Below, in pieces: positions 2,281 to 33,000 of a stretch of 37,240 bases of DNA (the stretch's first letter is position 1; the number at the start of each line of letters is the position of its first letter). The stretch lies in the IMG/VR virus record IMGVR_UViG_3300037264_002859, positions 1 through 37,240 of that record. One strand, written 5' to 3'. A program made the position numbers and the translations under genes. The notes beneath the pieces are model-generated. The model ran no database searches. It was not told the origin of the DNA and saw nothing but the letters and a program-made list of their open reading frames with translations. This DNA is from a virus.

Positions 2281-2327
2281 ACTGCCTTTTAAGCTGTGGG
2301 TCGCAGGTTCGAGTCCTGCGCGGCTCA
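2281..2327 (+). other. attP core: 3' half of tRNA-Lys(TTT)
   Basis: Visible elements: an anticodon loop CTTTTAA in a 5-bp stem with one mismatch, a variable loop, a perfect T-arm (GCAGG / TTCGAGT / CCTGC at 2303-2319), and a 3' acceptor strand GCGGCTC with discriminator A (2320-2327). No matching 5' acceptor or D-arm precedes it, so it is not a functional tRNA gene. Phages that integrate in tRNA genes carry exactly this 3' portion to restore the host gene. The anticodon loop points to tRNA-Lys(UUU). Confidence 0.8.
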
Positions 2328-2421: not shown

Positions 2422-3528
2422 ATGGGACGCCATGTAAAGCTCTACTGCTTGCGGCGGCGCAAGGATACCGGCTACTGGCAGTACAAGCTGAAGGGGTGGA
2501 AGGACTACCGCACCACCGGCACCCAGCGCGAAGACCTGGCCCTGAAGGTCGTGCTGCAGGCCCTGGAGCGCCAGGCCGGCCGCACGGGAAGCCTGCACGA
2601 CTATGCCTCGCCCTTTTTCTTCCGCGAGAGCTGCCCGCGCACGCAGCACCTGGAGGGTGAGGGGAAGACCATCGGCGACCGGCACCTCCGCGAACAGCGC
2701 CGGGTCCTGGAGCGCCACGTCCTGTCTGATACCCTGGCGGACAAGGCCCTGGCCGAGATCACCCGTGGAGACCTGCTGGCCTTCCGGGCCCGGCTGCTAC
2801 AGGCTCTTCCGGGCCGCTTCCGCACCATCAACAAGACGCTGGCCGTGCTCAAGACGATCTTCCACGAGGCCGTCTACCGCGAGGACCTACGGAGCTCGCC
2901 GGCGCAGGGGATCGGGGCTACCCGCTACCCGGTCCGCAAGTCGGCCACGCTCACCGTCAAGGAGCTGGCCCGCCTGTTCCCGCACCGTCCGCCGGGGCCC
3001 TGGCGGGACATGGACGGCTACGCGGCCTTCCTCCTGGCGGTCAGCACGGGCATGCGCAAGGGCGAGGTCCTGGCGGTGCGTTGGATGGACATCGACTTCG
3101 ACCGGCGCCTGGTGCAGGTGCGCAAAGCCTGGAAGGACGCCGCCCAGACTGGCCCGCCGAAGGGCGGCTACGAGCGGACCAGCCCGATCCTGTTCTGCCC
3201 GGAGCGCATGATCCGCGTCCTGCAGGTGCTGTACGCAAGCCGCGTCGCGGTGGACCCCACAGGCCTGGCCTTCTGTTACGCGGACGGCTCGCGGCTGGGC
3301 GATACCTGGTGGGCGAAGCGCTGGGCCAGGGCCCTGCAGGCCGCGAAGATCGAGGCGGCCGGCCGGCGGCTCACGCCCCACGGTCTACGCCGGACGCTCA
3401 ACAGCATGCTCCGCGCGGCCGGCAAGGACGCCGCGAAGATCCGCGCGGCCCTGGGCTGGCGGCAGGAAGCCACCCAGGACGGCTACACGGAGTTCCGGGC
3501 GGAGGACCTGGAAGACCTGCGGTTGTAG
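2422..3528 (+). CDS. int: Tyrosine-type integrase
   Basis: 368 residues, ATG preceded by AGGA. The product recombines attP with the host tRNA-Lys site. The catalytic set is complete: Arg212 in 'TGMRKGE', Lys247 in 'PKGGYERT', His320-x-x-Arg323 in 'TPHGLRR', Trp346 replacing the second His in 'LGWRQE', and nucleophile Tyr355 in 'DGYTEF'. The N-terminal ~60 residues carry an aromatic/basic arm-binding-like segment (YWQYKLKGWKDYRTTGT). Residues about 85-165 form the SAM-like core-binding domain (ITRGDLLAFRARLLQ...NKTLAVLKTIFHEAV). It is transcribed away from the attP core and ends 8 bp before a convergent lipoprotein gene. Confidence 0.95.
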   Translation: MGRHVKLYCLRRRKDTGYWQYKLKGWKDYRTTGTQREDLALKVVLQALERQAGRTGSLHDYASPFFFRESCPRTQHLEGEGKTIGDRHLREQRRVLERHVLSDTLADKALAEITRGDLLAFRARLLQALPGRFRTINKTLAVLKTIFHEAVYREDLRSSPAQGIGATRYPVRKSATLTVKELARLFPHRPPGPWRDMDGYAAFLLAVSTGMRKGEVLAVRWMDIDFDRRLVQVRKAWKDAAQTGPPKGGYERTSPILFCPERMIRVLQVLYASRVAVDPTGLAFCYADGSRLGDTWWAKRWARALQAAKIEAAGRRLTPHGLRRTLNSMLRAAGKDAAKIRAALGWRQEATQDGYTEFRAEDLEDLRL

Positions 3529-3536
3529 AAGTAGGG

Positions 3537-3869
3537 CTACTTCTGTTCCAGCTCGAAAAAGTAGGTACCCTCCGGCCCCCAGCCCCAAAGGAATAGGGGC
3601 CAAATAAAAAGGCCCGCGACAATATTCCCTATCTTCGCCTCTTTGTTGAGCTCCAGCGTCAGCGTTTTGTACCCGTCTTTTCTCGCTTCAAGATAATAGC
3701 TGTTGCCAACGAAATTGCTCAGCTTGCATTGGACCGGAGATATGCCGATTTTCTCTTTGTTGATATAGATTACGGCCCCGTCCGGCGTAGTCTCAATCCG
3801 CGACATCGTAGCACAGCCAGCGACTGCAAGAGCCAATACGATAGCCATAAAATACTGCACGCGCTTCAT
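3537..3869 (-). CDS. PEGA-domain lipoprotein (lysogenic-conversion candidate)
   Basis: 110 residues from ATG 3869, chosen because GAGGAGG lies just upstream; a start 24 bp further out lacks an SD. The N-terminus is a lipoprotein signal peptide with lipobox V-A-G-C (Cys19). Residues about 25-60 match the PEGA pattern ('TTPDGAVIYINKEKIGISP', then 'YYLEARKDGYKTLTLEL'). A hydrophobic Gly/Trp-rich stretch (IVAGLFIWPLFLWGWG) follows. It is convergent with the integrase and AT-richer than its neighbours, typical of an autonomously expressed moron. Phage lipoproteins at this position sometimes block superinfection at the envelope; that function is inference. The lipoprotein and PEGA calls are solid. 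Confidence 0.75.
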   Translation of the reverse strand: MKRVQYFMAIVLALAVAGCATMSRIETTPDGAVIYINKEKIGISPVQCKLSNFVGNSYYLEARKDGYKTLTLELNKEAKIGNIVAGLFIWPLFLWGWGPEGTYFFELEQK

Positions 3870-3926: not shown

Positions 3927-3968
3927 TGATGCGTCCCGCCGGTAGGCCGCCTTCCGGCTGACGCATCA
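3927..3968 (-). terminator. Terminator-like hairpin after the leftward RHH gene
   Basis: TGATGCGTC (3927-3935) pairs perfectly with GACGCATCA (3960-3968), with an inner GCCGG/CCGGC pair. Read on the minus strand the stem is followed by TCAATTTTC, and it overlaps the stop codon of the RHH gene. The T-tract is modest, so it may be a weak intrinsic terminator. Confidence 0.55.
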
Positions 3969-4211
3969 CGAGCCCAGCTTTCGCCTTTCTTCTTTTCTGC
4001 GATCTATTTCGTTCCAGGCAGATTCTTGATCGGCTATGAGTTGAAACTGCACTCTGTCAAGGAACTGATCAAGCAACTCTTGGACCCATACATTTTTCGA
4101 GAAACCGTTTTTGGCTTTTTCTTCCAGTGTGTGATAGGTCTCCGGTTTCAATCGAATCGTCAACGAGATGCGCCCATCTTTCCCTAATTTCGGTTCAGCC
4201 CTTTTCGACAA
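3966..4211 (-). CDS. Ribbon-helix-helix regulator, leftward (repressor candidate)
   Basis: 81 residues. The start is TTG at 4211, supported by the very strong SD AAAGGAGGT (4216-4224); no in-frame ATG exists nearby. Residues about 14-52 form an Arc/MetJ-type RHH fold: beta-strand 'RISLTIRLKP', helix 'ETYHTLEEKAKNG', turn, helix 'SKNVWVQELLDQFLDRV'. The ~30-residue C-terminal tail is charged and helical and could mediate oligomerisation. RHH proteins bind operators as dimers or tetramers through the strand. The gene is divergent from a second RHH gene (4353-4523) across a 141-bp region with two matched dyads, so it probably takes part in the lysogeny switch. Which of the two maintains lysogeny cannot be told from sequence. 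Confidence 0.8.
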   Translation of the reverse strand: MSKRAEPKLGKDGRISLTIRLKPETYHTLEEKAKNGFSKNVWVQELLDQFLDRVQFQLIADQESAWNEIDRRKEERRKLGS

Positions 4212-4230
4212 GTAGACCTCCTTTCATGAC

Positions 4231-4259
4231 AGCATCGCACCGAATTGGTGCATTGTCAA
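4231..4259 (-). promoter_or_regulatory. Leftward promoter of the RHH switch
   Basis: On the minus strand TTGACA (4259-4254) is a perfect -35, followed by a 17-nt spacer and a weak -10, GATGCT (4236-4231, 3 of 6 matches). The spacer contains the CACC-N5-GGTG dyad. The weak -10 suggests that it may need activation, as lambda pRM does (analogy only). Confidence 0.6.
4237..4251. promoter_or_regulatory. Operator 1 (GCACC-N5-GGTGC)
   Basis: Inverted repeat GCACC-GAATT-GGTGC centred on 4244, inside the spacer of the leftward promoter. It shares the CACC-N5-GGTG core and spacing with the site centred on 4332. Predicted binding site for one or both RHH proteins. Confidence 0.65.
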
Positions 4260-4312
4260 CATAATTCATTATCGAATAAGCCATAGAAAATCGCTATATT
4301 TTATTTCTTTTT

Positions 4313-4351
4313 TGGTTGACAGATTCACCATGATGGTGTATAGATTAACCA
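4313..4351. promoter_or_regulatory. Operator 2, nested dyad with four ACCA/TGGT half-sites
   Basis: A perfect 13-bp inverted repeat CACCAT-G-ATGGTG (4326-4338) lies between -35 and -10 of the rightward promoter. A second pair, TGGTT (4313-4317) and AACCA (4347-4351), shares exactly the same centre (4332). ACCA/TGGT elements thus occur at 4313, 4327, 4334 and 4348, as expected for a tetramer (two RHH dimers). Confidence 0.7.
4316..4344 (+). promoter_or_regulatory. Rightward early promoter (sigma70-type)
   Basis: TTGACA (4316-4321), a 17-nt spacer, then TATAGA (4339-4344). An AT-rich, UP-element-like tract (about 4285-4313) lies just upstream. The expected transcription start is around 4351, only 1-3 nt before the ATG at 4353. 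Confidence 0.8.
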
Positions 4352-4352
4352 T

Positions 4353-4523
4353 ATGGGAAAATTGAAAAATGGATTGATTCCGATGACCGTCCGGCTCGTG
4401 CCGGCGACTTATCGAAAACTCAACAAAATCACTCGCCGGCGGCCCCATCTAAGCTTGAATACTCTGATCAACGAAATCCTGGAGACCGAGTTACGGGCAG
4501 ATCAGCAGGAACCCGCGAAGTGA
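4353..4523 (+). CDS. Small ribbon-helix-helix regulator, rightward, leaderless
   Basis: 56 residues. Residues about 9-48 match the RHH fold: strand 'LIPMTVRLVP', helix 'ATYRKLNKITRRRP', turn, helix 'SLNTLINEILETEL'. At 56 residues it is about the size of P22 Arc. No SD precedes the ATG, and the promoter puts the mRNA 5' end almost at the ATG, so the message should be leaderless. Its stop overlaps the GTG of the next gene (GTGA), so it heads the early operon. The role would be Cro- or Arc-like control of the switch with the divergent RHH protein. The fold is confident; the role is inferred from context. Confidence 0.75.
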   Translation: MGKLKNGLIPMTVRLVPATYRKLNKITRRRPHLSLNTLINEILETELRADQQEPAK

Positions 4524-4717
4524 CCGACGCCCGCGCGGCGCTGATTGCCCGGGCGCGGGAGCGCCACGGCGTGGTGCTGCCCTGCGGCAGCCGGCACACG
4601 CTGGAGGAGTGCTTCACTGCATTGCCCAACGGGGAACTGATGCTGTGGTGGAATGACGAGCGCGGCGATACCCACATTTTGCGCGAATCAGAAATCCAAG
4701 GAGGTCTACATGCATGA
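4520..4717 (+). CDS. Conserved small early phage protein
   Basis: 65 residues, GTG start overlapping the stop of the RHH gene by 4 nt, so translation is probably coupled. The C-terminal half carries 'ELMLWWNDERGDTHILRESEI', a pattern I recall from small hypothetical prophage proteins. There is no TM segment. Two cysteines are present, not in a CxxC arrangement. The gene ends with the SD (AAGGAGGT) of its neighbour inside its last codons. Function unknown. Confidence 0.6.
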   Translation: MTDARAALIARARERHGVVLPCGSRHTLEECFTALPNGELMLWWNDERGDTHILRESEIQGGLHA

Positions 4718-5081
4718 ACGAGAAACTGGCGTCGGGAGTGGAAAGGCAGAAGTCAAAATGAAAATAAAAACGCCGGCAGAACCGAAAAGGATCGGAACGG
4801 ACGGGATCATCAATCTTGACAGCAAACGCGGGAAACGCCTGGGTTTTACTTCCGATCTGTTCGACGGCTATCTCTGGAAGCGGGGCAGGCGGATCATCAT
4901 CTCTTTCATCGAGAGCCTCGACCCGGGGAAGGGCCACCTGAAGGCGCTCTTCGACCGGATCGAATCCCTCGGCTACACGATAGCGGTCCCGACTCCATCG
5001 AAGCGGATGCGGGTGATCTGCGAGAAACGGGGTATGGTCGCGTGCTGGGAAGAGGACTACGAGATGATGGTGAAAAAATGA
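4710..5081 (+). CDS. Phage protein with a small GNAT-like domain (tentative)
   Basis: 123 residues from ATG 4710, chosen for the excellent SD AAGGAGGTCTAC directly upstream. The N-terminal ~35 residues are basic and probably disordered. The rest contains 'LFDGYLWKRGRRIIISFIESLDPGKGHLKALFDRIESLGYTIAVPTPSKRM' in order (positions about 48-100). That is reminiscent of a reduced acetyltransferase-like fold seen in phage hypotheticals: a strand, a G-x-G-x-L loop, a helix and a 'VPTP' strand. The acetyl-CoA loop Q/RxxGxG/A is not clearly present, so enzymatic activity is doubtful. Confidence 0.55.
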   Translation: MHERETGVGSGKAEVKMKIKTPAEPKRIGTDGIINLDSKRGKRLGFTSDLFDGYLWKRGRRIIISFIESLDPGKGHLKALFDRIESLGYTIAVPTPSKRMRVICEKRGMVACWEEDYEMMVKK

Positions 5082-5093
5082 AACGTTGTACGC

Positions 5094-5148
5094 GGCCAGG
5101 CGGGGCGAGGCGCGGCTAGGCGCGGCCTGGCTTGGCGCGGCGAGGCGA
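5094..5148 (+). repeat. Eleven tandem GGCNN pentamers ending in an SD
   Basis: The tract parses without gaps into GGCCA, GGCGG, GGCGA, GGCGC, GGCTA, GGCGC, GGCCT, GGCTT, GGCGC, GGCGA and GGCGA, followed by GGAGG (5149-5153), the SD of the next ORF. The 5-bp period does not match codons, and the tract lies between genes. Confidence 0.85.
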
Positions 5149-5158
5149 GGAGGGAATC

Positions 5159-5317
5159 ATGATGGCTTGCATGGGTGTCAAAAGAAATCGCCGGCAGTGC
5201 ATGAAGTGCAAGAGATTGCCTGGGAGCACGGAAGAAGAAGACTTGGCAAAAGGTTGGTTCAATCATCTCGAAACGGCGAAGCCATGCCAGCAATTTCTCC
5301 AGATTAAAAAGGATTGA
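5159..5317 (+). CDS. Small Cys-containing early protein
   Basis: 52 residues (MMACMGVKRNRRQCMKCKR...). The ATG at 5159 is 5 nt after GGAGG, the last unit of the pentamer tract. Cys at positions 4, 14, 17 and 43, with a CMKC knuckle, could form a small zinc site. The N-terminal third is very basic, the rest helical and charged. Function unknown. Another open frame through the pentamer tract (5086-5307) lacks an SD and is rejected. Confidence 0.55.
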   Translation: MMACMGVKRNRRQCMKCKRLPGSTEEEDLAKGWFNHLETAKPCQQFLQIKKD

Positions 5318-5902: not shown

Positions 5903-6922
5903 ATGAACGGAAATCAAGAAACCGCCCTCAGCACGGTTGTTGCTGAAGCCAAGCAGCGAGCGCTCAGGGTCATCGAGGCAAACCCCGGCTGCGTGTCCTA
6001 CGTGAAATCGGAGGACCTGGAGACGCAATCTCTTTTCGTGCCCATCGTTTCAGTTATCAAGCCGAAGGTGGAAGAGTTCCACGATCTGATCCCCGGGATC
6101 GGCATCATGGCGAAAGTCCCGCTCATGAACACGATCCGCGAAAAAGCGGGCGTCAATATCCATCACACCGAAACGACAAAACGCGGCGAATACGTCTGGG
6201 TCGCCCACTGCTTCGGAGACAAGCGCCAGCCGGACGGGACGATGCTTGCCCAGGATGCGGCATACGAGTTCGACGCCGAAAAGCGCGCCGAACTGGACTT
6301 CATCAATCAGCCTGACAAATACAAGAACGAGATCTTGAAGCGGAAGCATGTGCTGGAGCTATGCAAGTTCGGCGCACAGAAGGCGGTCACGGGAGCCCAG
6401 CTCGCGCTCATCCATAAGTTGGCGAAAATCCCGCCCAGCTTTAAGACCCCTGAAGAACTGATGCGGGGGATGATCGTGTGCCGGATAGACCGCAACGTCA
6501 ATGGCATCCTGGCGGACCCGCGGACGCGCAGGGTGGCAACCCAACTTGCCTTCGGCGCGAGCGATACGATCTATGGGCCGCAGGAGAGAAGGGCGATTTC
6601 TGCCGACGTCGGCGCGGAAACCCCTGTGGAGGAAGTCCACGAGCCGCCGGCGGCCGAGCCTGTGGACGAGGATCCCTTCGGTGAGAAAGAAGCCGCCGCC
6701 GAAAAAGAAGCGGCGCAGAAGGAAATGGACCCGAAGACTGCGGCCCGCCTGACGCTGGAGGAGTGGCTGCTGTCGGACATCCTCAAGAAGAGCGCCAAAG
6801 AAGTGATCCGCGCGCAGTTGGCCGACAAGGACATCACCCTGGAGGCCCTGCAGAACACGATCAAGCGCTGCAACGACTTCGAGGAGCGGGTGCGGGTGAA
6901 GGCCGCGGGAGGCAAGAAGTGA
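5903..6922 (+). CDS. Putative phage recombination (single-strand annealing) protein
   Basis: 339 residues from ATG 5903 (SD AAGGAG); a longer frame to 5786 would run through the terminator and is rejected. Residues about 95-175 contain 'GEYVWVAHCFGDKRQPDGT', then 'KRKHVLELCKFGAQKAVTGA' and 'ELMRGMIVCRIDRN', resembling phage proteins of the RecT/Erf-like annealing group that sit beside an exonuclease gene. The C-terminal third is acidic and coiled (EKEAAAEKEAAQKE), then a helical tail. The stop overlaps the GTG of the SbcDC-like nuclease (GTGA), so the two are tightly coupled, as annealase/exonuclease pairs usually are. The family assignment is by pattern and context only. Confidence 0.45.
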   Translation: MNGNQETALSTVVAEAKQRALRVIEANPGCVSYVKSEDLETQSLFVPIVSVIKPKVEEFHDLIPGIGIMAKVPLMNTIREKAGVNIHHTETTKRGEYVWVAHCFGDKRQPDGTMLAQDAAYEFDAEKRAELDFINQPDKYKNEILKRKHVLELCKFGAQKAVTGAQLALIHKLAKIPPSFKTPEELMRGMIVCRIDRNVNGILADPRTRRVATQLAFGASDTIYGPQERRAISADVGAETPVEEVHEPPAAEPVDEDPFGEKEAAAEKEAAQKEMDPKTAARLTLEEWLLSDILKKSAKEVIRAQLADKDITLEALQNTIKRCNDFEERVRVKAAGGKK

Positions 6923-9900
6923 TCAAGATCATCGGAGCCGGGGACATCCACTATCGTCCCGAGCACAAGGACAAGGCCCTCGCCAGCCTGCGGGTCATTC
7001 GGAACACGGCCGCAGAGAAGAGCGTTGATCTCGTCGCGATCCCTGGCGATCTATTTGACCGCGGCCTTCAGGCTTCGGACCGCGATGCCTACAACGCGCT
7101 GATGAAGGCTATCGGAGAAATCTTGGAGGTCTGTCCGATTGTCGCCGTGCGTGGAACGCCGAGCCATGACGTGCTCGGTTGCTATGCGCCGCTGGAGGCG
7201 ATGCGGGCCAAGCATCCTTTCGTCGTGCTTGAGCCCGGAGTGCCCTACATGCTTCCCGGCCTCATAGTGTTTGGAATCCCGGAACCCGGGAAAAGCTGGC
7301 TCCTGGCAAACAAGGACGGCCTGGGCCGCGATGAAACGAACCAAGCCGTCATGGATGCGCTGAAGACGCTTCTCCTGGGACTTGGTGGCCTCCGGAGAGA
7401 GCATCCCGATCTCGCAACCATCCTACTGTACCACGGCCAGATCCGAGGGGCAACCATCGGAGCGGGTCAGACGCTTGGGATTGGAGACATTGCCCTTGGC
7501 CGCGAGGACCTGGAGATGGTGGGGGCAGATTTTGTTCTTGCGGGCCATATCCATGAGCCGCAGGCGATCTCCGAGAGCATGCGTTACGCCGGCAGCGCCT
7601 ATCCCGTGGACTGGGCCGAGACAACGCAGCGGTCTTTCCTGAGCATCGAGCTTCCCGGCCCTGGAGCGCCGCCGCGCGTCCAGCGCGTTCCCTTCCCGCA
7701 CGCTCCGCGCGCGAAAGCAGTTTGGACGCTCGGTGAGCCAGTGCCGGAATACCCCCTGGACGGCACAGACGTCTGGCTCGTCGTGCGACACCAGAAGAAC
7801 GGGGAGCACGCCGCGGCGGAGCATTACCTTGACGAGATGCTTAAGGACGGCTGCGGTCCCGGATCGCGCGTAACCCTGGAAGTGATCCCCACAGAGACGG
7901 TGCGCGCCGGCCAGATCGCCGAAGCCCACGGCCTCGCCGACAAGCTGCGCATCTACGCCGAGAACAGCGGGGAGAAGCTGGCAGACCCGCAGCTGATAAA
8001 GGCCGCCTTCTTGGAGTCCGAGGTGCGCGCCCTGGGGCAGGCACCCGAGGGCCTGCACGTACGCATCGACCGGCTGCACCTGCGCGGCGCCATCGGCATC
8101 TGGAAGGGCCTGGGCCTGGATGAGATCGACCTGGACCTGGCCGACTACGACCCGGGCCTGATCGCCCTGGTGGGCGCCAATGGCCGCGGCAAGACCACGC
8201 TGATCGAGAACATGCACCCCTATCCGGAAATGCTCACCCGCGCCGGCACGCTGCAAGAGCACTTCCGGCTGAAGGACTCCTTCCGGGAGCTGTACTTCAC
8301 CGACGAGCGCACCGGGGCGCAGTATCGGGCGCTCATCCAGGTGGATGGCGGGTCCGCCAGCGGACGGGCCGAGTATCACCTGTTCCGGGACGGGAAGCCG
8401 CTCACCAACGGGCGCAAGGCGGACTACGAGGAAGCCATCGGCAGGCTATTCGGCAGCCTGGCCCTGTTTGTCCGCAGCGCCTTCGTCAGCCAGAAGCCGC
8501 CCAAGGGACACCCGGATCTGACCGACGCCACCAAAGGCGAAAAGAAGGCGTTGTTCCGCGAGCTGGCCGGCCTGGACTACCTGCAGGCCTACAGCGAGGC
8601 CGCGCGGGAAAAGGCCAAGGCCCTGGAGGCGCAGCTGGAGCGGGACGCCGGCCGCGTGGAGGCGCTGCAGGCGCAGCTGGCCGGCCGCGTGGACCAGATG
8701 GCCGTGCTCGGGTCATGCCGCAGCGAGCTGCAGGCCAGATCTATTACGCTGCTGGGCCTGGAGTCGCAGGGCAAGAGCGCGAAGGCCCGCGTCGAAGAGC
8801 TGCGCGTCAAGGTGCAGTCCAACCGGGAGATCGAGCAGCGCATCCGAGAGTCGGAGAACCGGCAGGAGAAGCTGCGCGGGGAAGTCGAGTCTATCGAGGG
8901 GAACCGCGCCGGCTATGAAGCCGCCCTGGTCGGCCGGCCCGCGGCTGAGCAGGCCCTGGCCGAGATCGAGGCCTTGAAGGCCGAGGAGGGGGAACTGCAT
9001 GGAAAGCAAACCGAAGTCCTCAAGGAGCGAGAGCGGCTGCAGCGAGAATACCTGGACAAGAAGCGAGCTGCTGAGGATGCAGAGCGCAAGATCGAGGCAG
9101 CCCAGGCGAAGTTGGACCGCGAGGCTGCGGTCCTGGCTCAGAAGAAAGAGGCGGCGGTCCATCGCGTAGACGAGCTGGAAGCCGAGCTCGCCGCCACCAT
9201 CGTCTGCCCTGCCTGCCAGCATCGCTTTCACCCGGACGCGGATACCGTCCGGGCCAAGATCGCCCAGCAACAGGAGATCGGCTTCGAGGCGGACAAGGCG
9301 CTGCACCGTAACCGGCAGGAGCAGGAGGGGCTGGCGCTGGATAAGGCGCACGTGCCCTCCGTGATCGAGCCGGAGCTGCCTACCTTCGACGCTTCGCGGC
9401 TGCGGGAGATCTCCGCGAAGCTCAAGGATGCCGCGGAGCACATTCAGCGCAGCCTGATCCGCGCCGCCGAGGAGGCCGCGGTCCGAATCCAAGAGGGCGA
9501 GCGGCGCAAGGGGCAGATCGTGCAGGACCTCGCCGAGCTGGGAACGCAACACGACGAACTCGCCGGCAAGCTGCTGGGCCCGGAGTTGGAACAGGCCTTC
9601 GCCGAGGCCCAGTGCGACCTGGCCAACCTGGAGGTCCTGTACCGCGCCTGCCGCGACGAGGTGAAGACGCTGGAGGCTGTCGTAGCCAGCCTGGAGAAGC
9701 AGCTCGGGGATCTCGACCAGGTCGCCCAGGAGCTGGAGAAGCTCAAGGACCAGGTCGCCGGCAAGCAGCAGGACGCCGCGGACTGGCGCTACCTCGAAAG
9801 AAGCTGCGGGCCAGATGGAATCCAGGCGCTGGAGCTTGACGCCATGGGCCCAGGTATTGCGGAGGTGGCCAACCGGCTGCTATCCGCGGCCTACGGCAGT

Positions 9901-10296
9901 CGCTTCGCCGTGGAGTTCCGCACGACGCGGATCGGCGGGGCGGGATCGAAGAAAAAACAGATCGAAGATTTTCAGATCGCCGTGTTGGACAGCGAACATG
10001 GCAGCGAGCAGCTGCTGGAGACACTCTCCGGCGGGGAGGCGGTCTGGATCAAGAGGGCCATCTATGACGCCTTCGGGATCATCCGGGACCGTTCCACCGG
10101 CCAGCGCTTCTTGACCTGCTTCCAGGACGAGGCAGACGGCGCCCTGGACCCGGAGGCCCGGCTGGCCTATTTCCGCATGCTGGAGGCCGCGCACCTGGAG
10201 TCCGGACGCCGGCACACCATCGTCATCACGCACAGCCAGGAAGCGCAGGAGCAGATCCCGCAGCGGATCAGGATGGAGGACCAATGGCAAAATTAA
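6919..10296 (+). CDS. Fused SbcD-SbcC (Mre11-Rad50-like) nuclease/ATPase
   Basis: 1125 residues; GTG start at 6919 overlapping the previous stop. A further in-frame extension upstream lies inside the previous gene and is discarded. N-terminal ~1-390 is a calcineurin-like phosphoesterase: Asp9-x-His11 (GDIHY), GDLFDRG 43-49, 'RGTPSHD' with His83, 'YHGQ', and GHIHEP 209-214. C-terminal ~370-1125 is SbcC/Rad50: Walker A GANGRGKT 419-426, long coiled coils, zinc hook CPAC (Cys763, Cys766), signature LSGGE 1036-1040 and Walker B 'FQDEADGALD' around 1068. Both active sites look intact, except that the Asn of the usual GNHD box is Ser82. Homologous phage enzymes (T4 gp47/gp46) are two genes. It would process DNA ends for the annealing protein upstream. 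Confidence 0.9.
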   Translation: MIKIIGAGDIHYRPEHKDKALASLRVIRNTAAEKSVDLVAIPGDLFDRGLQASDRDAYNALMKAIGEILEVCPIVAVRGTPSHDVLGCYAPLEAMRAKHPFVVLEPGVPYMLPGLIVFGIPEPGKSWLLANKDGLGRDETNQAVMDALKTLLLGLGGLRREHPDLATILLYHGQIRGATIGAGQTLGIGDIALGREDLEMVGADFVLAGHIHEPQAISESMRYAGSAYPVDWAETTQRSFLSIELPGPGAPPRVQRVPFPHAPRAKAVWTLGEPVPEYPLDGTDVWLVVRHQKNGEHAAAEHYLDEMLKDGCGPGSRVTLEVIPTETVRAGQIAEAHGLADKLRIYAENSGEKLADPQLIKAAFLESEVRALGQAPEGLHVRIDRLHLRGAIGIWKGLGLDEIDLDLADYDPGLIALVGANGRGKTTLIENMHPYPEMLTRAGTLQEHFRLKDSFRELYFTDERTGAQYRALIQVDGGSASGRAEYHLFRDGKPLTNGRKADYEEAIGRLFGSLALFVRSAFVSQKPPKGHPDLTDATKGEKKALFRELAGLDYLQAYSEAAREKAKALEAQLERDAGRVEALQAQLAGRVDQMAVLGSCRSELQARSITLLGLESQGKSAKARVEELRVKVQSNREIEQRIRESENRQEKLRGEVESIEGNRAGYEAALVGRPAAEQALAEIEALKAEEGELHGKQTEVLKERERLQREYLDKKRAAEDAERKIEAAQAKLDREAAVLAQKKEAAVHRVDELEAELAATIVCPACQHRFHPDADTVRAKIAQQQEIGFEADKALHRNRQEQEGLALDKAHVPSVIEPELPTFDASRLREISAKLKDAAEHIQRSLIRAAEEAAVRIQEGERRKGQIVQDLAELGTQHDELAGKLLGPELEQAFAEAQCDLANLEVLYRACRDEVKTLEAVVASLEKQLGDLDQVAQELEKLKDQVAGKQQDAADWRYLERSCGPDGIQALELDAMGPGIAEVANRLLSAAYGSRFAVEFRTTRIGGAGSKKKQIEDFQIAVLDSEHGSEQLLETLSGGEAVWIKRAIYDAFGIIRDRSTGQRFLTCFQDEADGALDPEARLAYFRMLEAAHLESGRRHTIVITHSQEAQEQIPQRIRMEDQWQN

Positions 10297-10529: not shown

Positions 10530-10714
10530 GCGAAGAAGCGCTGGCACTGCCCGTCTTCCAGATCCGCTGCCGGGGCTGCGACTATGTCCAGCGCCCGGGC
10601 CACCATGGCCTGATCGGCGAGCAGGTCGGGGTCCTCATCCTCAAGGACCGCTGCCCACGGTGCGACGGGCGGATGATGGAGCTGTATCTGCGATACGTAG
10701 GGAGGAGACAATGA
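10526..10714 (+). CDS. Second small zinc-ribbon protein
   Basis: 62 residues, ATGA overlap with the preceding gene. CRGC (15-18) and CPRC (43-46) form a zinc-ribbon pair around 'VQRPGHHGLIGEQVGVLILKD'. It is shorter and less basic than its neighbour. Possibly a nucleic-acid or protein adaptor of the recombination/replication set; function not recognised. Confidence 0.65.
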   Translation: MSEEALALPVFQIRCRGCDYVQRPGHHGLIGEQVGVLILKDRCPRCDGRMMELYLRYVGRRQ

Positions 10715-11691
10715 GTGGCGTGGCCGACAGGACGCAAAAGAGACGCGAGGCTAGAGGAGCTGTTCGCATGAGCGGGCGAGCGACAACCGAGTTCAGGTAT
10801 CTGATGCTCCGCGCAAATCAATTGCAGGCCCACCCAGAGAACATCCGCCGGAGATACATCGAAGACGAGGTGGAGGAGATGGCGGCGTCGATCCGGGCCC
10901 GGGGCCTGATTCACGCGCTGGAAATCGTGGCCTCCGGCGAGAAAGGCACCTGGTGGGTGGTGGCTGGGAACAAACGCCTGGCCGCCGCGCAGAGACTCGG
11001 GAAGGACTGCCCGCTGCTGAAATGCGAACTCGTCGACGTGGACCGCGTCCAGCAGTTGCTCGACATGGCGATTGAAAACTTCATCCGCAGCGACCCGAGC
11101 CCCGTGGACGAGGCCGCCCACTACCAGCGGATGATCGGCTCCGGGCTGTCCGTCCGGGATATCAGCAAGCGCACGGGGATCGGCGAGTTCCGGGTTCGGC
11201 TGCGCCTGTTGATAGCCAGGCTCGATCCGCCGATCCAGGAACTCATGGCCGCTGGGAAGCTCCCTCACGGCCCGCCGGCGTGTGAGGCACTCCTGACAAT
11301 CCCGGAATCCGCGCTGCGGATCAAGCTGGCTAATCGCCTGGCGAAGAATCCCGACACCACTACCAAGACGATCATCGCGACCTGCCGGCGCCTGCTCGAA
11401 GCGAGCGCGCCACAGGAAAAGCTGGATCATCCCGCGACGGATCTCGCGCTGCTGAAGGGGCCGGGAAAAAGGATCGCCCCCTGGCGGCAGGTGAAAACGT
11501 CTGCCTCGACCGTGTGCAGGACCTGCGATTTGAAGCTCTCCCGGCTGGAGGCCGCGGGCAGCCCGGCCTGGTCGCTGATCGTGCATGCGGCGAACGAGGA
11601 ATGCGGCGGCTGCTCAATCGGTCACATCCGGATAGTGTGCGACGTCTGCCCGCTACCGGCGTTCCTCAAGAAGCTGGATGGCAAGGGATGA
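10711..11691 (+). CDS. ParB/KorB-like DNA-binding protein with C-terminal Cys cluster
   Basis: 326 residues from ATG 10711 (SD GGGAGGAG). Residues about 30-105 form a ParB/sulfiredoxin domain: 'HPENIRRRYIEDEVEEMAASIRARGLIHALEIV' then 'WWVVAGNKRLAAAQRL'. It is followed by 'ENFIRSDPSPVDEAAHYQRMI' and an HTH 'LSVRDISKRTGIGEFRVRLRL' (about 145-167), as in ParB/KorB. The last ~60 residues add CRTC, CGGC and CDVCP, an extra zinc-binding region not normal for ParB. Phage ParB-like proteins serve in partition, transcription control or as nucleases. No parA and no obvious parS are seen, so regulation or replication is more likely than partition. The stop overlaps the next ATG. Confidence 0.75.
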   Translation: MSGVADRTQKRREARGAVRMSGRATTEFRYLMLRANQLQAHPENIRRRYIEDEVEEMAASIRARGLIHALEIVASGEKGTWWVVAGNKRLAAAQRLGKDCPLLKCELVDVDRVQQLLDMAIENFIRSDPSPVDEAAHYQRMIGSGLSVRDISKRTGIGEFRVRLRLLIARLDPPIQELMAAGKLPHGPPACEALLTIPESALRIKLANRLAKNPDTTTKTIIATCRRLLEASAPQEKLDHPATDLALLKGPGKRIAPWRQVKTSASTVCRTCDLKLSRLEAAGSPAWSLIVHAANEECGGCSIGHIRIVCDVCPLPAFLKKLDGKG

Positions 11692-12593
11692 AGCGCGAAT
11701 TGATCGAGGTCGCTGTCAGCCTGGCTGAGGCGGAAACGAATTCCCGGCCTTCCCTTTCCGCTCTGGCCGGCCACGCGCGGATCCCCGTCGTCGGCACTGA
11801 GCGGCCGCGGACGGCCCGCGGCGCGCGCTGGACGCCTGCCGAGGACGCCTTCCTCCGGGCTCAACTCGGCCTCCTCCCGGAGGCAGAAATCGGCCGAGCG
11901 ATAGGCCGGACCGTAGTCGCGGTGCAAAACCGCTGGAAACGGGATTTACACTTGGTGGCGCCGAGGCGGAATCCCAACTGGCTGACTCTGGAGGCTTTCG
12001 CACGTGGGCTCGGCGCGGATCAGAAGACGATGGCCAAACTGGCCGATCGGGGGAAAATCTCCGTCCGCCGGCTGCCGCAGGTGATCGCCACTAATGGGCG
12101 AGGATTGATCCGCGTGATCGACCGCAAGGAAGCGCTCGCGTGGATCGCCAATCCAATGCACTGGATCTATTTCAAGCCCGAGCGCGTCGGCATGTTTCGA
12201 AAGCAGGGGCAACGACGGATGGCCAGGCCTGACGTCGTCTTTTGGCGGGGAGCCAGGGCGGCGGTAGACGCGCTCCGGAAGACCTGGGGGGATAGCTGGC
12301 TCACCCCGACACAGACGGCAAATCTGGTTGGCCTGCCGTTCGGCAATCATTCCCGGAGGAGTTGCGGGGGGCTCAACAAGGCGATCCGCGCCGGGATCCT
12401 GCCGGCCGTCCGCTGGGGCAACTGGTGGATCCTCCGGTCGAAGGCCTTGAAGTTCGCGCGCGAACGGATGACCGGCGGCTGGGGCCCGCAAAAGATCAAG
12501 TGGATCCATTTCAAATGCCCTGTAGCCCCGAAGAAGAGGGGAAGAAGGGAGGCGCGAAGGGATAGACCCGCGAGACAAGCAGAGCCTGCCTGA
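11688..12593 (+). CDS. Myb/SANT-like DNA-binding protein
   Basis: 301 residues; the ATG at 11688 overlaps the ParB-like stop. Residues about 45-85 match a Myb/SANT helix triad: 'RWTPAEDAFLRAQLG' then 'EAEIGRAIGRTVVAVQNRWKRDL', with the expected Trp spacing. A second region (about 95-150, 'LTLEAFARGLGADQKTMAKLADRGKISVRR') and a third (about 205-255, 'LTPTQTANLVGLP...IRAGILPAVRWGNWWILRSKAL') each look like a winged helix of the MerR/HTH_17 sort. That gives several DNA-contact modules. The C-terminus is basic. A replication- or transcription-related role is likely; the exact function is unknown. Confidence 0.6.
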   Translation: MKRELIEVAVSLAEAETNSRPSLSALAGHARIPVVGTERPRTARGARWTPAEDAFLRAQLGLLPEAEIGRAIGRTVVAVQNRWKRDLHLVAPRRNPNWLTLEAFARGLGADQKTMAKLADRGKISVRRLPQVIATNGRGLIRVIDRKEALAWIANPMHWIYFKPERVGMFRKQGQRRMARPDVVFWRGARAAVDALRKTWGDSWLTPTQTANLVGLPFGNHSRRSCGGLNKAIRAGILPAVRWGNWWILRSKALKFARERMTGGWGPQKIKWIHFKCPVAPKKRGRREARRDRPARQAEPA

Positions 12594-12723
12594 AAGAGGC
12601 GGCAGGCCCGGGCCGGCGCCCTCCAGAGACGCCGGCCTTCAAGGCGCTGACGGGATTATTAGAGGAATGTCGGGCCGTCTCCCCCGTCGAGTCGGGGGCA
12701 GCGCCAGATGGAGGGGAACTTGG
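12594..12723 (+). other. Intergenic leader with two strong hairpins
   Basis: GGCCGGCG (12611-12618) pairs with CGCCGGCC (12630-12637), and CCCCCG (12681-12686) with CGGGGG (12693-12698). Neither is followed by a U-run, so they are not simple intrinsic terminators. The second ends just before the SD GGAGGGG of the initiator gene and could modulate its translation. A start at ATG 12667 would put the hairpin inside the coding region and is less likely. Confidence 0.45.
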
Positions 12724-13731
12724 ATGACGGCTTATAAAATCGTTGGCTGGGGCAAGTATTACGAGAACAACCGAACTCGAGAACTCAAGAGAATGGCCTG
12801 GGTCCCGATGCCGAATAAGTTTGATGGCGATGGCTACACCTATCTTGTTGATGGGCCAACCGGGGCCGCCTGTTTTGGTGCCTGGTGTGCCCTGGTAGAA
12901 GTCGCATCAAGGTGCGACGTACGCGGCACCCTCCTGCGGACCGGGGGTGCACCCCATGATAGTGAGAGCTTGTCGAGGATAACGAGACTTCCGGAAAAGA
13001 TATGGAATGAGGTATTACCAATTCTCGTATCTATCGGCTGGATAGAGAGATACGAAATCCCGCAGGAAGGTGCGGGAATCCCGCAGGAAGGTGCGGGAAT
13101 CCCGCAGGAAGGTGCGGGAATCCCGCAGGAAGGTGCGACCGCAGTGCGCCCAGCGCCGCACCCTTCTGCCATGGAACGGAACGGAACGGAACGGAACGGA
13201 AAGAATAATAGGCGCACAAGGGTGCGCCCACAAATTACTGCTCCGGGAACTAGTGAGGCGGTGGAAGAAAAAGACGACGACCCCTTCGACGAGAAGCAGG
13301 CGCCGGAGGTGGTCGCTCCCACGGAGCCGCCTGTCCCCATGCCCGCCGCCGAAGAGACGCTGAAGGCGCGCATCGCCGAGGGGGAGAAATCCGGTGATCT
13401 GGCGGCAGTTCTTATGGCGGGCCTGGAGCTAATGAACGGCCATCCCTTCCCGTCCTATCCAAAGGAGTGGAAGGCGGCGCACCAGGTCGAGGAGAAGATC
13501 CGGCGAGTCGGCAAAGGCGAACACCCGCTTGGTTTTCTGCGGGGACTGTTACAGGTCTATCTGGCGAAACGGAAAACATCGAAGCAGGAATATTGGCGCG
13601 ACGCCCTACTATCGCCCTCGGCGATCAACGTGCGCTTCGACCAAATCCTGGGCAGCGTCCAGAAGATTGCCTCGGATGCCCAAGGCGCGCAGATCGTTTC
13701 CGACTTTTTGAAAGAGAGGCAAGCGCGATGA
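12724..13731 (+). CDS. Replication initiator / replisome organiser (O-like)
   Basis: 335 residues from ATG 12724 (SD GGAGGGG). The N-terminal ~110 residues read as a replisome-organiser winged helix: 'WGKYYENNRTRELKRMAWVPMPNKFDGDGYTYLV', 'AACFGAWCALVEVASRCDVRGTLLR', 'SLSRITRLPEKIWNEVLPILVSIGWIE'. A low-complexity linker follows, with four IPQEGAG heptapeptides and an ERNGT run, both produced by DNA repeats. The C-terminal ~120 residues are helical and contain 'SYPKEWKAAHQVEEKIRR' and 'QEYWRDALLSPSAINVRFDQILG', typical of the C-terminal part of such proteins. By analogy with lambda O it should bind the iterons inside its own gene and recruit the helicase machinery. Confidence 0.7.
   Translation: MTAYKIVGWGKYYENNRTRELKRMAWVPMPNKFDGDGYTYLVDGPTGAACFGAWCALVEVASRCDVRGTLLRTGGAPHDSESLSRITRLPEKIWNEVLPILVSIGWIERYEIPQEGAGIPQEGAGIPQEGAGIPQEGATAVRPAPHPSAMERNGTERNGKNNRRTRVRPQITAPGTSEAVEEKDDDPFDEKQAPEVVAPTEPPVPMPAAEETLKARIAEGEKSGDLAAVLMAGLELMNGHPFPSYPKEWKAAHQVEEKIRRVGKGEHPLGFLRGLLQVYLAKRKTSKQEYWRDALLSPSAINVRFDQILGSVQKIASDAQGAQIVSDFLKERQAR
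13057..13140 (+). repeat. Four 21-bp iterons
   Basis: Units at 13057-13077, 13078-13098, 13099-13119 and 13120-13140; the last differs only in its final bases. Each contains the dyad CCCGCA-GGAAGG-TGCGGG. They encode IPQEGAG in the initiator linker. Confidence 0.9.
13173..13202 (+). repeat. GGAAC pentamer run within the initiator gene
   Basis: Five exact GGAAC units (13173-13197) then GGAAA. The strand is almost all purine plus C and leads into AT-rich DNA. Five is not a multiple of three, so gain or loss of one unit would shift the initiator frame. Confidence 0.9.
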
Positions 13732-30076: not shown

Positions 30077-33000
30077 ATGGCATACTTCGTCCCGACCACC
30101 ACCGAGTTCGATAATGCCGTCAAGGATCGCACCTCCCCGCGTTATCTGAAGATCCTCATCGACACCAATGGGGACGACGTCCTCGAGGACCTCACCTCGT
30201 ATCTGGACAACAACCAGGTCTCGGGTGGAGGACGGCTCGAGGGGGATTTGGGAGGCACCAAGCAATATTCAGTCCGCCTCAAGAATAGCAGCCAGGTTTT
30301 CCACGAAGGCGACTTTGCCGGCGCTGCCTGCGCCATCGAGGCCAAGGTAGGGGTCGGGACCTCGTACATTCGCATTTTCACCGGGTTTGTTGCCGAGGAA
30401 GGATGCCAGCGCGACAAGCTGAATCTAACTTCGGACACGGTGACGCTGCAGTTCCAGGATGCCTCGAAGAGCCGAGGCATGAACCGCAAGACCTTACCGA
30501 TCACCTACGTCAATCACAAGATTTGCGACACCGTGACACCCTCCGCCTCTCTGTTTCATAAGCTGGCCTACCAGCTCGGCCTGGTCGCCGCGGATCTGGA
30601 GACCGCGACGATCGATCACACCAAGGGTTACCTGCCTTTGGAGGGAAAATCCACGGTGTGGCAAGAGCTCCAGGACCTGGCCTCCCAATACCTGGGGCAT
30701 TTGTACTTTCGCTACGATGGCAAGCTGCGGCTGATCAGCCGGCACCAGCAGGGCTGGAGTGAGCCCACCAGCGAGTGGACCTTCGACGACACCAATATCC
30801 ACCGGTGGACTGGCAAGAGCACCGGGATCGCCTGTAACCGGGTACGCACGGAGTTCGAGTACTACGAGAACCTCGGCCAGCGGGTGATCTACAAGAACAC
30901 GGATTCCTGGGACCAGGCCAACGAGCGCAACGCCATCGAGGTGGCCGCTGGCGCTTACTGGCCAGGCCCCAACGCACAGGACAAAGCGCAGCTCCATTAC
31001 AAGGATCCGGCTTCCGGGGAAAGCTTCCTCGTGGGGATCAGCATCCAAACTCCTACGATCGGGGCCGTGGGAAGCGCCTCGGACATCGAGTGCTCTGGGG
31101 GCTTGCTCACCCTGGTCAGCTTCAACGGTTCCACCGGGGATACCCAGCAGAACCCAGGCAGTTCTGAAATCATCCTGCGCAACAACACCGGCGGCACGAT
31201 CACGATCCGCAAGTTCGAGATCCGGGGAACGGCCCTGCGGGTGGCCAAGAAGATCGTGGTGGAGGACCTGGATAGCGCGATCAGCGATGACTGGGAATGG
31301 GTCGATAAAACGATTCCCGGGAAATACGCAGTGTCGGATACCCAAGCACACGTCACCACGCAGCGCTGGGTGGAGTTTGGCAAAGTCAAGCGCAAGCTGT
31401 TCGATTTTACTACCGACTGGATTCCGCAGATCCAAGAAGGAGCTGTTGTCACTTTCCATCCGGATGCGGACATCAATATGAATGCGGTGGTGGAGAGCTT
31501 CGCCCACGACTGCGCCGGATCCCCGAGGAAATGGACTACCAAGATCCAACTCCGGGAAAAAGAAAGCTTCACCCCCTCCGGCTCGCCGAAGCTGATCGTG
31601 CAGGCCCAGGGCGAAGCATCAACCGAAACCGCCCAGGAGTTCGTCACCCACCAGGAGCTGCTGGACGGCTTCGACAATGCCCCGAGCGGCGGCACTACCA
31701 CTCCTACGCAAGTCACGGTCGGACTCTGCCGCGGCTTCTTCAAGGGGATCGAGCTCAAGTGGGACCGGCAGCTGAACCTGACGAACTTCGACCATTACGA
31801 GATCCAGGTAAGCGACGATCAGGTTACCTGGTATAGCCTGAAGTTCGACGGTACTGACTGGAAGGACCAGGTCGGTGGAGTCACGAGTTGGCAGGCCGAA
31901 ATCCTGTTCCACACGAATATCCCGTTCGACGGCAGCGCGGAGATCCCCACCGGCAAGCTGCTGTACTACCACGTCCGCAGGGTGACCAAGGCCCCGGCTC
32001 AGGGGACGTGGAGCGCCATCGTTTCAGCCACCACGGAAGCGCTGGTGACCGGAGATTACGCGGCTTACCAGCTCACCGCCTACAAGCTCGACGGCTACGC
32101 CCGGAGCCAGCACGGCGTGTTCCTGGAGGTCTTCGAGGCCCCGCCGAGCGAGTGGAACAACTGGGCAGGCTCGGGCACCGAGACGATCCAGAATGATGTC
32201 GGAGTGTGCGGCGGCAAGGCTTACCAGACGGCGGGCTACCGCCGGCGGACGTTCCACAAGAACATTCCCTTTGACCCGTCGAAGCAGTACCGGCTGCGCT
32301 GCCGGGTCCGCAGGACGGCCACCTCTGACGCTGCGAAGCAGCAGTTCTATTGCGGCATCGAGGGTGTGCGGGCCGACGGGGTGATGTTGTGCAACCAGAC
32401 TGGGATAGATAGCTATGGCAGCCAGCACTACATCTGCGCCAACAGGGACGGCTCAACCTGGACCCTCAACGAGTGGCAGACCTTCACGGGCTGGTTCAAG
32501 GGTACCGCGGTGACCGGGGAGGGCACCGAACACCCGAACGGTAACGACCCGGCGAAGCTCCATGAGAACGTCCGCTACATCCGCCCGCTTTTCATTATGA
32601 ACTACTCCAACGGTCCCGTCGGCAACGTGATGCAGTTGGACTACATCGCCATCGACGTGTTCGACGAGGACGAGCTGTACCGCACCTACGCCGGGCTGAA
32701 CGTGGACGGCACGGTGGCCGCCAACAAGGTCGTGGCGAACAGCATCCTGGCGAACGCGGTGGAGACCGCGAAGCTCAACGCTCTGGCGGTGACTGGAGAC
32801 AAGATCGCCGCCAATACCATCAGCACGAACAAGCTGATCGCCGCCGAGATCGCTACCATGCTCCTGTCGGCCACAAGCGCCGTGATCGTCGGGCAGGACT
32901 ATGAAGGTACTCCTCCTGCGGGCGCGCAGCGGGTCGTGTGTGATGACAATGAGTTGCGGCTGGACGAGTACAATGGCAGCTCTTGGGACGTGATCTTCCG

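Follow-up and report, generated by a model that had tools for sequence, protein, structure and literature searches.

The DNA analysed here, which we call the window, is virus record IMGVR_UViG_3300037264_002859 over its whole length of 37,240 bp. Its late region is of the HK97 type (terminase relatives at 36 to 39%), and all of its genes but two read rightward, the two being RHH-A, which is the sole leftward regulator in the window, and the gene for a PEGA-domain lipoprotein (Table 1). RHH-A and a second small gene, RHH-B, diverge from an AT-rich intergenic region (4212-4352; 35% GC versus 62% for the window) that lies between the integrase gene and the early operon, with attP and the integrase on one side and a recombination/replication operon on the other. 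An earlier sequence-only reading had described two ribbon-helix-helix (RHH) genes diverging from 141 bp at this point, and every coordinate that it gave proved exact.

Table 1. Features in and around the RHH-A/RHH-B intergenic region
Feature	Coordinates	Strand	Remarks
attP core	2284..2327	+	44 bp, perfect match to spirochaete tRNA-Lys(TTT), 3' part
Tyrosine integrase gene	2422..3528	+	Family match
PEGA-domain lipoprotein gene	3537..3869	−	PEGA 1.4e-6; ATG at 3869 after GAGGAGG; lipobox LAVAGC; downstream of RHH-A
Strong hairpin	3927..3968	−	−28.3 kcal/mol (z −3.0), weak T run; between RHH-A and lipoprotein genes
RHH-A	3966..4211	−	81 aa; TTG start; perfect Shine-Dalgarno AAAGGAGGTCTAC; Mnt-sized; RHH profile E 1.8e-7
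Leftward promoter	4231..4259	−	−35 TTGACA 4259-4254; 17-nt spacer; −10 GATGCT 4236-4231 (weak, TGn ahead)
Left putative operator	4238..4250		Core CACCGAATTGGTG; in RHH-A promoter spacer: TTGACA-N3-dyad-N1-GATGCT
21-bp tandem repeat	4313..4354		Two TGGT-N10-ACCA (4313-4330, 4334-4351); spans rightward −35 and −10
Rightward promoter	4316..4344	+	−35 TTGACA 4316-4321; 17-nt spacer; −10 TATAGA 4339-4344
Right putative operator	4326..4338		CACCATGATGGTG; in RHH-B promoter spacer: TTGACA-N4-dyad-N0-TATAGA
RHH-B	4353..4523	+	56 aa; ATG start; Arc-sized; first gene of early operon; RHH profile E 1.3e-7
orf65	4520-4717	+	Start overlaps RHH-B stop; next gene of rightward operon
orf123	4710-5081	+	ATG start; rightward operon, after orf65

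The assignment of both flanking proteins to the RHH fold, made originally by eye, held when they were compared with a separate RHH profile, to which they were the sole matches among the 392 ORFs of the window (the next had an E of 0.5). The profile was made from 20 Spirochaetota RHH domains of the RelB/HicB type, excluding RHH-A and RHH-B, and it is not fully independent of them, in that its 20 sequences had been recruited by a model containing both proteins. In Pfam, NCBIfam and PHROG neither protein had a match above cut-off; the sub-threshold matches in these libraries were to HicB (0.043), to a RelB-like family (0.023) and, for RHH-B, to an Arc-like repressor in PHROG (E 0.16). Structure models (mean pLDDT 77 for RHH-A and 68 for RHH-B) showed an extended N-terminus followed by helices A and B at the positions expected, with a long second helix predicted at 39-80 of RHH-A; the strand was not formed in the monomer models of either protein. 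Foldseek searches with RHH-B returned NikR, Arc (1PAR) and ParD2 without significance, a weakness to be expected at 56 aa, and those with RHH-A returned ParD alone (E 3.9); a PDB sequence search gave nothing useful. Judged by sequence, both proteins are members of the RHH superfamily and yet fall outside the Arc/Mnt family (PF03869), there being no Pfam Arc match and no BLASTP alignment to Arc or Mnt.

Aligned with each other, RHH-A and RHH-B are 33% identical over 55 residues (BLASTP, E 4e-7), and they are therefore probably paralogues. Read in the RHH register, the strand of RHH-A turns S16-T18-R20 outward and that of RHH-B P10-T12-R14, two of the three residues being common to both, and the strand arginine is invariant with Arc and Mnt; in AmrZ the counterpart of this arginine reads a guanine (PMC3325190). 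Because the reading strands are nearly identical, a common operator is predicted for the two proteins.

A perfect TTGACA serves as the −35 box of each promoter, as the sequence-only reading had it. This hexamer is rare in the window, with 11 occurrences on the two strands together, and the two −35 boxes stand back to back, 56 bp apart. Both −10 boxes are weak: the right one agrees with the consensus at 4 of 6 positions and the left one, taken at 17 nt and with TGn before it, at 3 of 6, and a consensus promoter scan at 9/12 listed neither promoter. Of the two 17-nt spacers that had been proposed, the right one fits TATAGA, whereas the left one must be regarded as a fitted choice, since the −10 box that defines it, GATGCT, is poor. 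RHH-B has no Shine-Dalgarno sequence and the −10 box ends 9 bp before its ATG, and for these reasons its mRNA, with a predicted transcription start at about 4351, is probably leaderless.

Within the spacers of both promoters lies the dyad CACC-N5-GGTG that had been singled out in this region, with centres at 4244 and 4332, 88 bp apart. The left copy extends by one base on each side to GCACC-N5-GGTGC, and the 5-bp linkers are GAATT on the left and ATGAT on the right. The window holds six copies of the dyad, versus 0.65 expected; of the other four, three are within coding ORFs and the fourth, at 2088, belongs to GC-rich sequence close to attP; this copy and the two promoter dyads are still the only non-genic copies in the window when one mismatch is allowed. 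We simulated 2000 Markov sequences from the dinucleotides of the intergenic region itself and found two separated copies of one dyad with at least two G/C per arm in 0.05% of them (1/2000), and a repeated dyad of any kind in 3.75%. Around the right dyad runs the concentric pair that had also been pointed out, TGGTT (4313-4317) and AACCA (4347-4351). A stronger regularity at the same place is a 21-bp tandem repeat, identical at 15 of 21 positions (TGGTTGACAGATTCACCATGA / TGGTGTATAGATTAACCATAT); a tandem repeat as good occurred in 1.2% of the simulated sequences, and the only two copies of TGGT-N10-ACCA in the whole window are those inside it. In the operators of Arc, AmrZ and CopG, too, linkers of 5 bp separate the half-sites, with a preference of AmrZ for an AT-rich one (PMC3325190). 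Taken together, the Arc-type 4-5-4 geometry and the presence of matched dyads in both spacers make it likely that the dyads function as operators. DNA looping between them was considered and set aside; the 88 bp do not correspond to an integral number of helical turns, and the idea found no support.

The 44 bp of the attP core are identical to part of the tRNA-Lys(TTT) gene of Spirochaetes bacterium RBG_16_67_19, and a 42-base attP probe matched no other genome in a collection of 84,980 species. Relatives of the integrase (best at 38 to 44%) were found in 11 of the 26 genomes of the order to which that bacterium belongs. On the strength of this single tRNA match and of the integrase relatives in the same order, we place the host of the phage, probably, in the Spirochaetota, as an environmental spirochaete. 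Within the record, phage genes flank the attP core to the left and to the right, and the sequenced DNA is therefore no prophage inserted at this site; by the same position, among phage genes and next to the integrase, we judge from the sequence that the phage is of the temperate type. This integrase-bearing phage also encodes a ParB-like protein (10660-11691), in which the ParB_N and HTH_ParB domains were matched.

Among the proteins scanned, a set that took in part of the late ORFs, no CI/Cro-type HTH protein was recognised, in agreement with the sequence-only reading, and there was no HTH_3 or CI-type repressor pair; early ORFs of no family remain in the window. Neither orf65 nor orf123 matched an antirepressor, a toxin or any other known family, and no neighbour of RHH-A or RHH-B matched a toxin in Pfam or PADLOC. 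An identical 12 nt, AAGGAGGTCTAC, precedes the starts of RHH-A (TTG 4211; 4199-4222) and orf123 (ATG 4710; 4699-4715). The hairpin at the end of RHH-A may end or attenuate its transcript. Elsewhere in the early operon, one ORF of about 1124 aa (about 6922-10296) is SbcD-like in its N-terminal part and SbcC-like in the rest, an apparent SbcD-SbcC (Mre11-Rad50) fusion. A 354-aa ORF (12667-13731) contains four perfect copies of the 21-bp repeat AATCCCGCAGGAAGGTGCGGG at 13056-13137, giving a GIPQEGA repeat, and the tail protein gene at 30077-34924 contains five to six near-identical 135-bp repeats (33400-34150, about 91% alike; 45-aa unit LNSTDVAFIDHALDELRTYRFNGSTWSLVGSGLSIPGIG...), which look like a recent expansion in a receptor-binding or tip protein.

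Since RHH-A and RHH-B have nearly the same reading strand and both promoters carry one and the same dyad, the simplest reading would be that they regulate themselves and each other through one operator. What we infer for the pair, from binding and repression to the division of labour and the control of lysogeny, would run as follows. One or both RHH homodimers would bind CACC-N5-GGTG, two dimers to each 13-bp site as Arc and AmrZ do, and, since the site takes up the spacer between −35 and −10, RNA polymerase would be blocked. RHH-A would be the lysogenic-side repressor, keeping the rightward early operon off and limiting its own synthesis, and RHH-B, in the manner of Cro or Arc, would feed back on the two promoters once the phage has infected a cell or been induced. 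Were the operators identical and the effects of the two proteins too, the result would be damped autoregulation without bistability; the additional half-sites on the right could give stronger repression of the early promoter, and it is in these right-hand half-sites that we would look for the asymmetry that a two-state switch needs.

We therefore favour, with a probability of roughly 0.55, the reading that RHH-A and RHH-B are divergent, autoregulated RHH paralogue repressors which would act through one operator type, in the fashion of P22 immI, as the primary immunity switch of the phage. By its sequence the region is a genuine and well-organised regulatory one; that it is a variant of the P22 Arc/Mnt arrangement is plausible, as is a role of the pair as the primary lysis-lysogeny switch. 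To our knowledge, phage decision switches have been studied almost solely as HTH repressor pairs, and the RHH case found in textbooks is P22 Arc/Mnt, a secondary region. Only tentatively, and with more doubt than conviction, do we suggest that in this tailed Spirochaetota phage RHH/RHH paralogues with one operator type and no CI/Cro, independent of Arc/Mnt, form the sole lysis-lysogeny switch. A primary switch run by two RHH paralogues with one operator in common would mean that the logic of a divergent repressor pair is independent of protein fold; it would provide a very small testable switch (81 + 56 aa, 141 bp) and would add to the sparse knowledge of spirochaete phages.

The pair might instead be a secondary immunity or accessory module that controls itself and a few genes, the main decision being taken by an unrecognised protein, for which the candidates include a D5-like/HTH_17 regulator at 11685-12590 and an orphan ORF. 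P22 itself has Arc/Mnt as a region of secondary rank behind C2/Cro (PMC8022706; PMC7549136), and the present phage has both this possible regulator, with its HTH_17 and D5-like matches, and many early ORFs without a family. Against this, the RHH pair heads the early operon and adjoins the integrase and attP, no antirepressor follows RHH-B, and the HTH_17 protein is encoded within the rightward early operon, an unlikely site for a maintenance repressor. We consider a secondary role unlikely, while taking it seriously. Partition, copy control or antitoxin function with ordinary autoregulation (RelB, HicB, CopG or ParG-like) would accord with the weak best matches to HicB and RelB-like antitoxins and with the ParB-like protein, but no toxin was matched in Pfam or PADLOC beside either gene and no ParA was seen, and these negatives, together with two operators where an iteron array would be expected and the possession of attP and an integrase, make such a role very improbable.

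A different question is whether the dyads are operators for some other DNA-binding protein, a phage HTH protein or a host regulator, with the RHH pair acting otherwise, for example at other sites. Scans of sequence collections for the promoter/dyad layout yielded 12 and 36 stretches, mostly coding matches or promoters without RHH genes. TTGACA-N4-CACC-N5-GGTG-TATA was present in 36 other viral stretches, and an RHH gene was found near none of them; some of these stretches are apparently from T4-like phages, with Hsp20 and other genes downstream, and in several the dyad is extended to TATACACC-N5-GGTGTATA. We do not count the 36 as an excess, because tens of chance spacers are expected among the many TTGACA/TATA promoters of the collection. 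In one other phage record (stretches L070, 1406-1502, and L078, 4555-5110), two divergent promoters each have CACC-N5-GGTG in the spacer, beside a gene for a 70-aa CI-type HTH protein (PF07022, E 2.9e-4); L070 was accordingly rejected as a second example of an RHH switch. Given these spacers without RHH neighbours and the CI-type HTH case, the CACC dyad by itself does not, on sequence, identify the protein that binds it. Nevertheless, the RHH proteins are the only regulators flanking dyads in the window, the geometry is one known for RHH proteins, and the 36 matches are explicable by chance, so we hold a foreign binder to be rather improbable. That the matching dyads are a mere compositional coincidence in an AT-rich promoter region would fit with the over-representation of the dyad in the window, three of its copies being coding, but it is hardly credible in view of the simulated frequency of two separated GC-holding dyads, the location of both in spacers, and the nesting of the right one in a tandem repeat that the window contains only once.

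To find relatives of the RHH proteins, IMG/VR was searched with single sequences and with alignments, and further searches covered phage and plasmid records and the genomes of Spirochaetota at the levels of phylum, class and order. No homologous RHH pair was found in IMG/VR, in the phage and plasmid collections or in several hundred Spirochaetota genomes; the searches yielded one distant pair, described below, and otherwise only unrelated antitoxins of the RelB/HicB type. No relatives of orf123, of a 340-aa neighbour protein or of the integrase turned up in IMG/VR, and the flanks of integrase relatives, where fetched, contained neither an RHH pair nor an intergenic dyad pair.

The nearest relative of RHH-A (43% over 41 aa) is encoded in IMGVR_UViG_3300021387_000113, where a small RHH gene likewise diverges from it, at a distance of 176 bp. 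The divergent RHH genes there (4669-5177) encode proteins of 50 and 59 aa, and a DNA methyltransferase gene and further small HTH-like ORFs are found in their surroundings. In contrast to the present phage, CACC-N5-GGTG is absent from the 10 kb examined, and the pair is too distant for a comparison of operators. AmrZ of Pseudomonas aeruginosa resembles the RHH pair in being an autoregulatory RHH protein whose GC-containing half-sites are separated by a 5-bp AT-rich linker, GGC-N5-GCC (PMC3325190), but it is a lone chromosomal regulator with no divergent partner, and its half-site is GGC, versus GGTG here. In Pseudomonas Pf prophages, a subset lacking the usual repressor carries an Arc-family gene where the repressor C gene would otherwise be, and its RHH product has been proposed to assume prophage control (PMC7549136); unlike the present case, these are filamentous phages with a single, longer Arc-family protein and no paired operators described.

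The resemblance to lambda CI/Cro is one of design: related repressors diverge between the integrase and the early operon, and one operator type is common to both promoters. Lambda cI is transcribed from PRM as a leaderless mRNA, and in the present phage, too, one product (RHH-B) is probably made from such a message. The fold is RHH and not HTH, however, there is no counterpart here of the CI protease/dimerisation domain, and where lambda has two tripartite operators this region has two single or compound sites.

P22 Arc/Mnt had been named as the best-known relative of the pair. As the best analogue, in layout and operator geometry, it stands; sequence similarity to Arc or Mnt was not detectable. 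Both phages have two divergent paralogous RHH genes of similar size, encoding 82 aa (mnt, leftward) and 53 aa (arc, rightward) in P22 and 81 and 56 aa here, and the region between the two genes measures 90 bp in P22 and 141 bp here. In both, a possible exclusion gene follows the leftward member: the PEGA lipoprotein gene, by analogy with the position of sieA behind mnt, is a candidate superinfection-exclusion or conversion gene. The differences are that the P22 promoters overlap and the Arc and Mnt operators differ, whereas the same dyad is found in both promoters here; that P22 has ant (behind arc) and sar, neither of which was recognised here; and that immI lies in the late region of a phage with C2/Cro elsewhere, whereas the present pair heads the early operon beside the integrase. 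The annotated Arc operator of P22, ATGATAGAAGCACTCTACTAT, lies within TTGACATGATAGAAGCACTCTACTATATT, which reads as TTGACA-N3-[TAGA-N5-TCTA]-N1-TATATT (Pant). The left dyad, for which binding is predicted, has exactly this spacing, TTGACA-N3-[4-N5-4]-N1-(−10), and the right dyad, one base off (N4/N0), keeps the 4-N5-4 geometry between −35 and −10. Thus, by the spacing of its left promoter, the region is a closer parallel to P22 immI in sequence layout than the sequence-only reading had stated.
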